A stretch of DNA of 39,868 nt, taken from Nitrososphaerales archaeon. Its GTDB lineage: Archaea > Thermoproteota > Nitrososphaeria > Nitrososphaerales > Gagatemarchaeaceae. Below the pieces are notes generated by a model, which was not told where the DNA came from, did not search any database, and saw nothing but the letters and a program-made list of their open reading frames with translations. The DNA lies in contig JACWAI010000074.1 of assembly GCA_014874415.1 (NCBI GenBank), positions 1 to 39,868 of the forward strand, in the 5' to 3' direction. A program made the position numbers and the translations under genes. Of this stretch, positions 8,049 to 25,945 are shown in pieces; position 1 is the stretch's first letter; each line of letters begins with the position of its first letter.

Positions 8049-8056
8049 AAAAAGGT
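8049..8056 (-). terminator. Oligo-T terminator after 5S rRNA
   Basis: Directly after the 3' strand of the 5S terminal helix, the minus strand reads ACCTTTTT. Such T tracts are the usual intrinsic termination signal for archaeal RNA polymerase. It separates the 5S gene from the downstream DUF1512 gene. Confidence 0.5.
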
Positions 8057-8186
8057 GCCAGCATCAGGGTTTCACGAGGGCTCTCGCACCTCACTACCGC
8101 CCTGACGACGTGTGGTTTGACTTCTTCCCCTCTTGCGAGTCTGGGATCGGAACGAGTCCAGGTCGGACCCACACGCTATGGCCGGC
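8057..8186 (-). rRNA. rrf: 5S ribosomal RNA with a 17-nt intron
   Basis: The minus strand follows the 5S consensus from end to end: terminal helix GCCGGC (8186-8181) with GCTGGC (8062-8057), 'CATAGCG' as loop A, GTGTGG/CCACAC as helix II, 'CCGATCCCAG...AAGTCAAACC' as helix III with loop B, then 'GCGGTAGTGAGG' and TCAGGG/CCCTGA in the helix IV/V arm. The homologous E. coli stretch is CCGAACUCAGAAGUGAAAC. A 17-nt segment (8140-8124) interrupts this motif. Without it the RNA is about 113 nt by this conservative end placement; one to three more nucleotides per end are possible. A TATA box lies 26-33 nt upstream and a T tract follows. The gene is solitary, away from 16S and 23S genes. Confidence 0.88.
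8124..8140 (-). other. BHB intron in 5S rRNA
   Basis: On the minus strand the sequence is TCCC-AGA-CTC-GCAA-GAG-GGGA-AGA. TCCC/GGGA form the 4-bp central helix, the two AGA triplets are the two 3-nt bulges, and CTC/GAG with a GCAA tetraloop is the inner hairpin. This is the exact BHB geometry recognised by archaeal splicing endonuclease. Cutting after the second bulge base on each side (AG|A) removes 17 nt and joins CCCAG to AAGTC, restoring the conserved 5S sequence at E. coli position 51/52. Confidence 0.8.
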
Positions 8187-8211
8187 TGAGATTGGGCTAT
8201 CCGCCGCGGTA

Positions 8212-8219
8212 GATTAACG
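8212..8219 (-). promoter_or_regulatory. TATA box for 5S rRNA
   Basis: The minus strand reads GTTAATCT, 26-33 nt upstream of the predicted 5' end of the 5S RNA. This is the expected position for an archaeal box A with transcription starting at the mature terminal helix. Confidence 0.5.
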
Positions 8220-16109: not shown

Positions 16110-16169
16110 CTACGCCTGAAGGCGACGCCGAGAACGCGGGGTCGTCGGCTAGTCTGGTCTAGGCTTCAA

Positions 16170-16184
16170 ACCCACTTGGAAGTA
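16170..16184 (+). other. 15-nt intron of tRNA-Pro (29/30)
   Basis: CTTC (16164-16167) pairs with GAAG (16179-16182) as the 4-bp central helix. The 5' bulge is AAA, the 3' bulge TAG, and AGG/CCT forms the outer helix; the inner part is only a loop. Cuts after the second bulge base give CAA+GC, the intact 5' anticodon strand. This intron must be removed before the 37/38 intron can adopt its own BHB. Confidence 0.75.
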
Positions 16185-16192
16185 GCCTTGGG

Positions 16193-16206
16193 ATTCTAGA
16201 CGAGAG
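16193..16206 (+). other. 14-nt intron of tRNA-Pro (37/38)
   Basis: After removal of the first intron, CTTG (16187-16190) pairs with CGAG (16201-16204; one U-G pair), with bulges GGA and AGC and a 7-nt terminal loop. Cuts after the second bulge base place the intron at the canonical 37/38 position. At 14 nt it is close to the minimum that can form this fold. Confidence 0.75.
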
Positions 16207-16277
16207 CGCTTGAGATCCCCGGTTCAAATCCGGGCGACCCCATCCCTCTCGCTTTGTGAACTTCAATCATCATACCG

Positions 16278-22864: not shown

Positions 22865-25800
22865 CTACCCAGCCGACTTCCCCTTGATGTAGTGCTGTTT
22901 GATGAACTCTTCCTTGATGTTGGTCAGCTCGTTCTCGGGGAGGACGGACAGAGTCTCCCAGGCGATGCGGTGGGTGTCTTCGAATGTCCTGTTCTCGTCG
23001 TACCCTTGGTTGAGGAACTTCTGCTCGAACTCGTCCCCGAACTGCAGGTACCTGAGGTCCGAGCCAGTTAGGCCTGACTTGCCGACTATCTCGGCGAGAG
23101 CCCTTAGCTCGACCGCCCTGGCGTAGGCGTTGTACAGCTGGTTCCCCACCTGGTGGTGGTCTGGGTTCGCCTTCCCCTGCTTGATCACGTAACCGAGAGC
23201 CGGCCCCATGAGCCTGCTGAGGCTTGAGAGGACGTACACCGGGGGATAGATGCCCTTCCTGAACAGTTCCCTTCCAAGGAATATCTGGCCCTCTGTGATG
23301 TAGCCAGTCAGGTCTGGGATGGGATGGGTGACGTCGTCGCTCGGCATCGAGAGGATAGGCATCTGGGTGATGCTCCCCTTCTTCCCTTTGATCCTCCCTG
23401 CCCTCTCGTAGTTGGTGGCAAGGTCGGTGTAGAGGTAGCCCGGGAAGCCCTTCCTGCCCGGGACCTCTTCTCTGGCGGCTGAAATCTCCCGGAGGGCCTC
23501 GCAGTTTGAGGACACAATCCCGTCCCCGGTCACAATCTTATGGGTGTCCGAGACGGTGTAGTCATACACGAATTCCTCGCCCGCGTTGGGAATGACTTCG
23601 GCTTCGGTGACCGCGTCTAGCACGTAGTTGCCTTCGACTAGGAGGCGCAACCTCTGGTATTCCGAATCGCTCTCTCCGACAGCTTTTCTAGCCGAGTCCA
23701 GCCAACGGCCGAGCAGGGTCCTTGAGACGCGTCGTTCGTTCGCCTCGAACTGGGAAATCGTGCTCGAACGGCCCAGGCGAACGGCACTGATTCCGTGCTT
23801 CTTCCTGAAAGCTTTGAACAGTCGGCTGCTCTCAAGGGGTGCGAGATCGAAGTAGTCGGACCTTTCGTGCCTATGCGAGCTTAGATCCCTGGCGAGTTCC
23901 TCGAGTCGACTTCGCTTTTCTGGGTGGCGAAGCTCAACCATCTCCGCGAACCTCAGAACATTCCTCTTTCCCCTGACTATGACGTCGAACATGTGGCTGC
24001 GTCCGAACGTGCCCTCCGAGTCGCGCTCCTGTATGCAACTTGCTACTCCTAGACGCTTCAGGAGCTGTTGCAGGCGCTTCGCCCGGATTCTGCTCGTCGT
24101 TGTGAGTTGTACCAGGCTCTTTCCCTGCGGGATTGAGCCGTCCCCGTCGAGGTAGCCGGCTAGAAACGCCGCTATGAACTCGGGGGGCATCTTGAAGACC
24201 GCTGACAGCTCCTCGTCCTTGCCATCCAGTAGCAGTCGTCCAAGAACCTGACATAGAGCACGACTGCTCACTGTCGCCATTAGCACGCCGTCCTGGTTTG
24301 GTGCGACGTAGACGTCCGTGCCTGGGAACAGCATTTTTACCTCCCCGATGAATTCACCGATGAGCTGCTCGTTCCGGTTCCCGAAGGTCACATGGTAGTT
24401 GTGTTGGCCCTCGTTTTCGTAGATCGTCCCATCGGAGGCTACCCACCCTAGAATCCTCAGCCAGCCCGGCGTCATAATCGGTTCCGCGAAATTGAGCCTG
24501 TCCTTCTTGCCTGCGGTGACGTACGCTATTTTGCTCGAGGTCTCCTCCAAGGTGAGGCCCAAACTGGCGCTGATGGCAAGAAGCTCGTCGGCACTAAAGC
24601 ACCTCTTACGATAGGAGTCGGAGGCCCTACGGTAGTTGAGAGAAAGCCTCTCACAGGCCGCCCTTAGGCTGCTGAATTTCTCCGCTAGCTTCGCCTCAAG
24701 TTCCTGGCTCCTGAGGTGGAAGTAGAAGTTGGTCGTGCAGTCAAGAAATTGACCGAGCAGGCTGGGGCGAACCGAGGGGAACTCGAACCTCCCAACAGAA
24801 TAAAGCTCTTGGCCTGCCCTGATGGACTCCGCAGCCAGCATTTGCGGGCCAGCCGGGGTGTCGACCTGGACCTTGTGGTCGGGCGTCACGGTGAGGATGG
24901 CGCCTGACCGCGTTCTGATGCGTACCAACTGCTTAGGCGACGCCACCTTTTGCACCGACATGACACTGGAAGGGAGCGTACGGTACCCCTCCCAGCTAAG
25001 GGCGCTCAAAGGTGACGTCGTGCTAATCCGAGGGACGCTGAGCATGACCCGACCCGACGTGGACGGCAGGTCGGCCGAGTAATCCACGGGACCAGCCACG
25101 GACTCGACGTACTTTCCTATCTTTGTGATGGTGCCGTCGCCCAACACGACCTCGGTGTCCCCCCGGAAGCAATAATTTGTGATATCTGTGATTATGACCA
25201 GGACGTGCATGCCCAGCTCGAAGGCCAGATATTCGGCGGCGGTTAGCGCCACCCTCGGCGTGATTATCCTTTCGATAGCCGGGTCGTCCGCCAGGTTCAG
25301 GTAAAGTATGCTCCTCCTGATCGCCCCTGACTCGGCCAGCGTCCTCTGGAAGAACGAGGCTTCGCTGTGTGACACCCCGACCGCGGCGAACACGACCGCG
25401 AACTCTTCTCCTTCGCCGACGACCGTCGCCTGCCTGGCTATCTGGGCGGCGAGCATGTTGTGAGGCATCCCGGCGCCCGAGAAGATGGGGAGCTTCTGCC
25501 CCCTGACAAGCGTCAGCATCCCGTCGATCACAGACACTCCTGTCTGTATCAGGTCGGTGGGGTATTCCCTCCTTTCTGGGTTGATGGGCGCGCCGTTCAC
25601 ATCGAGGAATGTCTTGGCAACAGGTTCGGGGAGCCCGTCCTGGGGCCTTCCGAGGCCGTCGAAGACCCTTCCAAGAAGCTGGTCCGAGACAGGGAGCTCC
25701 ATGGTCTTCCCGAGGAAGCGCGCCCTTGTCCCGCTGACCGAGAGCCCCGACGTCCCTTCGAATACCTGGACGACCGCCTTGCCGAACCCGGTCTCCAGGA

Positions 25801-25945
25801 CCCTGGCTAGCCTCCTGTTGCCGGTATCGTCTTCTATCTCCACGAGCTCGTCGAAGGCGGCCCTGTCGACCCCGTCCACCACCAGTAGCGGGCCCCTGAT
25901 CTCCGCCACCTTGCTGTACTCGAGCCCCGAAGAGGACTTGCTCAT
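22865..25945 (-). CDS. atpB: A-type ATP synthase subunit B with intein
   Basis: A 1026-residue precursor. The exteins (residues 1-258 and 815-1026, 470 in total) form the regulatory, non-catalytic B subunit of the A3B3 head: '[20 protein letters not shown]' in place of a P-loop, '[36 protein letters not shown]' and '[26 protein letters not shown]'. The intein interrupts the stretch after ITDITNY, at the nucleotide-binding interface, where inactivation of unspliced protein is certain. The start overlaps the atpA stop (ATGA). Confidence 0.96.
23504..25171 (-). mobile_element. Intein with LAGLIDADG endonuclease domain in AtpB
   Basis: A 556-residue in-frame insertion, precursor residues 259-814. 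Block A begins at the splice Cys ('[23 protein letters not shown]'), block B is '[14 protein letters not shown]', block F '[24 protein letters not shown]', and the C-extein starts with Cys815. Endonuclease motifs are '[18 protein letters not shown]' and '[19 protein letters not shown]', the two LAGLIDADG blocks, both with an acidic residue. The residue before the final Asn is Ser rather than the usual His, which is unusual but tolerated in some inteins. The element appears full-length and possibly active for homing. Confidence 0.95.

Follow-up and report, generated by a model that had tools for sequence, protein, structure and literature searches.

The window analysed here is a stretch of 39,868 nucleotides from the genome of a soil-type Nitrososphaerales archaeon. 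On its minus strand lies a 5S rRNA gene that is interrupted by 17 nucleotides; the question is whether these are spliced out of the transcript or kept in the mature rRNA. Introns are known in archaeal tRNA, 16S rRNA and 23S rRNA genes. A search of titles and abstract openings in the open-licence literature found no report of an intron in 5S rRNA. The host family is probably Thaumarchaeota group I.1c; the accessible portion of PMC10640624 treats Gagatemarchaeaceae as that group.

A 5S rRNA gene with 17 additional nucleotides

The strand from 8189 to 8053 matches the 5S rRNA model RF00001 with cmscan (44.4 bits; gathering score 38). It scores 122.6 bits with covariance model R1, whose 35 source sequences include the window's own 5S. 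The 5S core aligns over its full length and differs from intact relatives by one clean 17-nt block, 8140 to 8124, located between CCCAG and AAGTC at the bulge separating the two halves of helix III. Both the RF00001 match and the alignment with relatives agree with the initial annotation, which had read a minus-strand 5S rRNA with 17 extra nucleotides at 8124-8140. The ends of the insert are not fixed; it can slide within an AGA...AGA repeat. The features are as follows, all on the minus strand.

8053 to 8189: 5S rRNA gene, 137 nt with the insert and 120 nt without it (RF00001 and R1 scores)
8124 to 8140: 17-nt insert ACTCGCAAGAGGGGAAG, a proposed mini-intron (alignment with intact relatives, excision register)
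8143 to 8146: exon strand of the central helix, UCCC; its CC is also part of helix III in intact 5S
8126 to 8129: insert strand of the central helix, GGGA (geometry, pair counts)
8130 to 8139: inner hairpin CUC-GCAA-GAG (stem in 11 of 11 distinct sequences, loop variable)
8140 to 8142: 5' bulge AGA, with a proposed cut between 8141 and 8140 (from geometry)
8123 to 8125: 3' bulge AGA, with a proposed cut between 8124 and 8123 (from geometry)
8210 to 8217: TATA-like TTAATCTA, preceding the 5S start by some 20-28 nt (read from the sequence)

Stretches similar to the TATA-like element are also found upstream in relatives, and a run of T lies downstream of the gene. Excision at the cut points of a bulge-helix-bulge (BHB) motif gives the same junction as in intact relatives; the CCCAG-AAGTC junction foreseen in the initial annotation occurs insert-free in genomes G034, G007, G012 and G027.

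The interrupted gene could be a silent or faulty copy (a pseudogene or an assembly error) whose function is served by an intact 5S elsewhere. The genome assembly (G000; 1.69 Mb) consists of 114 contigs with a listed contamination of 3.55%, and an additional 5S match, intact and scoring 101 bits, lies on a 5.3-kb contig (C20, L039). A second uninterrupted 5S gene had been named in the initial annotation as evidence against its reading, but C20 bears bacterial 16S, 23S and 5S genes; its intact 5S is therefore contamination and is rejected as a second gene of the same archaeal genome. Moreover, the near-complete genome G016 (8 contigs, listed as 100% complete and 2% contaminated) has a 137-nt gene as its sole 5S match. 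This sole, interrupted match also counts in favour of an intron. The insert is common to 13 genomes from two families, six insert-bearing genomes correspond to public records from several projects, and a DUF1512 gene neighbours the 5S locus in every family genome with a 5S match. A silent or faulty copy is already largely contradicted by these data and is highly improbable.

Occurrence of the insert among relatives

Model R1 finds a 5S match in 275 of 300 genomes of the order. Order-wide 5S lengths were compared among the matches listed (to E 8.3e-25) together with 38 chosen low-scoring or missing genomes that were rechecked, 27 of which have a 5S match. In the window's family (f1), 39 of 46 genomes have a match; the seven others are 60-85% complete. 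Ten of the 39 carry the insert: G000, G003, G013, G016 and G026, which belong to one genus, and G031, G068, G069, G032 and G033 from three other genera. Genus g36 of family f13 also has 137-nt 5S genes in all three genomes sampled (G086, G093, G099), with ACTCTTAGGAGGGGGAG, or a version ending in A, at the same site; their f13 relatives G048, G105 and G070 have 120-nt genes. The covariance-model check of related genomes suggested in the initial annotation has thus found a 17-nt insert at one site in 10 of 39 f1 genomes and 3 of 3 sampled g36 genomes. Interrupted 5S genes can be hidden by a length filter or by a weak score; five of eight fall below the Rfam cut-off.

Among 400 genomes of the class, 27 match a pattern that fits the f1 and g36 inserts with up to three mismatches; 11 of these match exactly, and every one of the 11 belongs to f1 or g36. 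The same pattern occurs in 36 of 398 genomes of a phylum sample, where only G000 matches exactly. Inexact matches are meaningless since a read-backwards control also gave scattered three-mismatch matches. One such match, in G079, was rejected because there is no 5S at that place. An insert pattern scan of public genome contigs returned six records, all of them metagenome-assembled genomes.

Two further observations concern 5S genes in single genomes. A partial match on contig C155 of G007 was rejected as an interrupted gene; another intact 5S begins there and is cut off by the contig end. G007 has two intact copies, on C64 (L085) and C155 (L084, cut by the contig end), with different upstream sequences. 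In G060 and G079, listed as 99% and 94% complete, R1 finds no 5S; contigs may be missing, or the 5S genes may be otherwise interrupted.

Within f1 the 5S gene occupies one orthologous locus, as a DUF1512 gene lies beside it in 39 of 39 genomes; further neighbour order was checked where flanks allow. The window's neighbour proteins have no match at the g36 5S loci. On a two-protein tree comprising only the 39 family genomes, ten of them insert-bearing, the insert requires at least six changes, compared with 9.1 +- 0.9 for shuffled labels; 10 of 1000 shuffles need as few. A single gain on this tree implies nine losses, or ten when weak branches are collapsed.

Relatives without the insert lack exactly the 17 nt, patchily across the tree. 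G007 and G026 are sisters on the tree, although not close (branch lengths 0.39 and 0.23), and their 5S sequences differ only in two near-terminal bases and in the 17 nt. Such exact, patchy presence in otherwise near-identical 5S genes argues against a segment that is retained in the mature rRNA. It is no proof of splicing by itself, since the flanking AGA...AGA repeat eases exact loss by slippage. Presence that varies among very close archaeal genomes is also described for a tRNA-Thr intron of Caldiarchaeum in the available part of PMC3293823; that intron is in a tRNA locus and linked to a mobile element, whereas the present insert is in 5S.

The exon strand of the proposed central helix differs between interrupted and intact genes. 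All 10 interrupted genes of the family have CCC; its 28 parsed intact genes divide into 12 with CCC and 16 with CCT (G067 could not be parsed, and related genomes are not independent counts). This bias fits a second duty of CCC in pairing with GGG of the insert, and the presence of CCC in every interrupted gene counts in favour of an intron. As a separate observation, the helix III strands are swapped (CUGG/CCAG instead of CCAG/CUGG) in 12 of the 28 parsed intact genes and in none of the 10 interrupted ones. Some intact family 5S genes have a loop C that is one base shorter.

Fit to a bulge-helix-bulge motif

The initial annotation described the insert as a perfect BHB. The elements are present: a UCCC/GGGA central helix, AGA bulges on both sides, a CUC/GAG stem and a GCAA loop, and the bulges keep their register in all seven contexts tested. 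An outer helix is absent from the same seven contexts (0 bp in each); the motif is consequently relaxed rather than perfect. GGG of the insert pairs with CCC of the core in 11 of 11 distinct sequences. The central helix has four base pairs in three of these and three in the others; the fourth pair is C-G in two, U-A in one and A.G in eight. A strict BHB conserved in all relatives is therefore rejected. What stood of the initial description is the set of elements and their register; what did not is the perfection of the motif, as it lacks an outer helix and has a standard fourth pair in only 3 of 11 sequences. Both features, with the fourth pair mostly A.G, count against an intron.

Among shuffled 17-nt inserts, 0.06% show the full motif by chance (central helix of at least three contiguous base pairs, inner stem of at least three, junction restored); the corresponding share of random inserts is 0.19%. 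If the hairpin is kept constant, 4.7% yield three or more central pairs and 1.7% yield four. These trials used the G000 context, 200,000 each, and a motif that was picked after being seen.

Instead of being spliced, the 17 nt may persist in mature 5S rRNA, forming a short hairpin on the ribosome surface at the bulge of helix III. We consider this unlikely. Its precedents, in the part of PMC7812874 that is available, are expansions of 41-46 nt at positions 52/53 in Thermoanaerobacterales; this site is ranked there among the least obstructed ones of bacterial 5S. The 17 nt lie within the 13-109 nt range of known expansions. The expansions of the Thermoanaerobacterium group occupy the same helix III bulge and leave the core otherwise conserved, like the insert (PMC7812874, in part). 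They are longer and bacterial, whereas the insert is 17 nt long, archaeal and complementary to the core. Since the described segments lack noticeable core complementarity according to the same source, the match of the insert's GGG to core CCC speaks against retention. The archaeal expansions covered there are from Halobacteriales only and at another site. Halococcus 5S, with a 108-nt insert, resembles the present case in being archaeal and the sole 5S type in the cell; it differs in site (104.1-105) and in size, and cryo-EM finds that insert retained in ribosomes (PMC7812874, in part). If the 17 nt were retained, this would be an archaeal 5S expansion outside Halobacteriales, at a site described for bacteria only in what is accessible of PMC7812874.

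Conservation bears on both possibilities. The insert is 17 nt long in 13 of 13 genomes and its inner CUC/GAG stem is invariant in 11 of 11 distinct sequences. This uniformity is rRNA-like and favours retention, as does the fact that 100% of the cells pair in a structure with an intact core and a CUC/GAG hairpin. On the other hand, a retained hairpin would have only three base pairs and its loop sequence is free (GCAA, GAAA, CAAA or UUAG); only the loop and the 3' tail of the insert vary. Covariation cannot arbitrate because the BHB and the retained structure are both nearly invariant.

Computed folds agree with the BHB proposal only in part. Helix III is predicted in the minimum free energy (MFE) folds of all 13 spliced transcripts and of 3 of the 13 unspliced ones, which counts in favour of an intron at the level of modelled structure. 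A strict BHB helix is predicted in only 2 of 13 unspliced transcripts, which counts against one. When either structure is forced, energy favours the BHB over the intact core for 6 of the 13 sequences and disfavours it for 7, the penalty in the three g36 genomes being 1.2-1.3 kcal/mol. These energies are compatible with retention, too; folding energy was set aside as an uninformative arbiter.

Small tRNA introns and the proposed maturation of 5S rRNA

The deciding context comes from tRNA genes. Those of these genomes, including G000 and G016, hold many small BHB introns, both at canonical sites and elsewhere. Removal of the BHB segments gives ordinary tRNAs; without it there would be no working tRNA, so these inserts must be removed. 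Small introns, several of them in the D, variable and T regions, are seen at tRNA loci L127-L147 (G016), L148-L166 (G026) and L296-L313 (G000). The intron finder forces a product of some 70-odd nucleotides; its calls for tRNA-Leu and tRNA-Ser are wrong and were set aside by eye, and other single calls may err. Many noncanonical tRNA introns in Thaumarchaeota, for which a separate model was trained, are described in the part of PMC8450103 available.

Several of these tRNA introns are built like the 5S insert. The intron of tRNA-Arg(CCG), an identical 15 nt in G000 and G016, has a CUGA/UCAG central helix, AGU and AGA bulges and a GC-GAAA-GC hairpin; a tRNA-Arg of G016 with anticodon UCG has AGA and AGA bulges. 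Several have an outer helix of only 0-2 bp. Similarly, the small BHB introns of archaeal tRNAs (Thermoproteales, Thaumarchaeota) resemble the insert in several ways. The 5' exon supplies one strand of the central helix, the cuts (proposed ones in the insert) follow the second base of each 3-nt bulge, the inner hairpin is small, and presence is patchy. The 5S insert differs from them in its rRNA host and in the lack of any outer helix. Two apparent signs against an intron are weakened by the tRNA-Arg intron. Its GAAA loop, together with CAAA and UUAG among the 5S loops, weakens a GNRA loop as a sign of retention; its identity in G000 and G016 weakens uniformity as a sign against an intron.

Uniformity stands in comparison with tRNA-Ala. 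An insert of 17-21 nt in the variable loop of this tRNA is present in 16 and absent in 9 of 25 parsed rows, and such equally patchy presence counts in favour of an intron in 5S. In tRNA-Ala of G023, G025, G028 and G029, A-U replaces G-C as the third central pair, and the fourth pair is broken. The 5S insert varies less than the tRNA-Ala introns do, both in length and in sequence, and its uniform length and stem count against an intron. Full-length tRNA matches of at most 77 nt make up 2 of 30 in G016, 5 of 26 in G000, 9 of 26 in G005 and 23 of 39 in G034, counts that include the naturally long Leu and Ser tRNAs. Small tRNA introns are thus not confined to insert-bearing genomes, as G005 and G034 also have them without a 5S insert. 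Their frequency in G005, and the uninterrupted tRNA-Ala of insert-bearing G003, are further points against an intron. Conversely, the occurrence in the same genomes' tRNA genes of spliced-type inserts of the same build speaks against retention.

Other interrupted genes in the window were noted in passing. A tRNA gene at 16138-16242 on the plus strand (36 bits, probably tRNA-Pro) has about 30 nt of intron sequence and was missed by the gathering-threshold scan and by ARAGORN. At 22865-25945 on the minus strand, a probable intein interrupts a gene of the ATP synthase alpha/beta type, taken to encode A-type subunit B; the intein has a LAGLIDADG_3 domain and an Intein_splicing match below its cut-off.

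Genes for EndA-type splicing endonucleases (PF01974) are present in 15 of 16 genomes scanned; ten, including G000 and G016, have two each. The alpha-like EndA of G000 has its best match, and closest solved relative, in 3p1z (E 4.2e-43), which we take to be the Aeropyrum pernix enzyme, with no gap through a loop near the N terminus. This is probably the loop that bears a conserved lysine. This loop and lysine confer broad specificity according to the available part of PMC6379350. In the portions available of PMC6379350 and PMC12397907, alpha-beta-type enzymes with the loop cut relaxed motifs, and the Methanopyrus enzyme without it cuts them poorly. Judged from sequence, the host endonuclease resembles the broad-specificity type and may be able to cut relaxed motifs.

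The 17 nt are quite probably a relaxed BHB mini-intron in a single-copy archaeal 5S gene, excised by the splicing endonuclease with subsequent ligation. The intron reading of the initial annotation remains the best supported given the small tRNA introns in the same genomes, in a form without an outer helix and with a standard fourth pair in 3 of 11 distinct sequences. In the transcript, CCC of the exon would pair with GGG of the insert, beside the CUC/GAG hairpin and around an AGA bulge. EndA would cut AG|A on both sides, and a tRNA ligase, presumably RtcB, would join CCCAG to AAGUC to give CCCAGAAGUC. The freed CCC could then pair in helix III, giving a normal 5S rRNA of 120 nt. We infer the cleavage, the ligation and the identity of the intact RNA as the ribosomal one. 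Archaeal 16S and 23S BHB introns share the rRNA host, and EndA-type excision is expected for both; those known are much longer than 17 nt and often contain homing endonuclease genes. If spliced, the insert would to our knowledge rank with the smallest introns of any rRNA. According to the available part of PMC12918454, circularisation is often a step in the maturation of 16S and 23S rRNA, but not of 5S.

Since the central helix uses CCC of helix III, 5S rRNA would stay out of its ribosomal fold until splicing. The chances are about even that the intron is obligatory in two archaeal families, with the 5S ribosomal fold awaiting the tRNA-splicing enzymes. If this is true, 5S maturation would be coupled to tRNA splicing. 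The species pair G007 and G026, whose 5S genes differ by little beyond the insert, makes its gain, loss and function testable. If the insert is spliced, 5S rRNA would join the hosts of archaeal introns.
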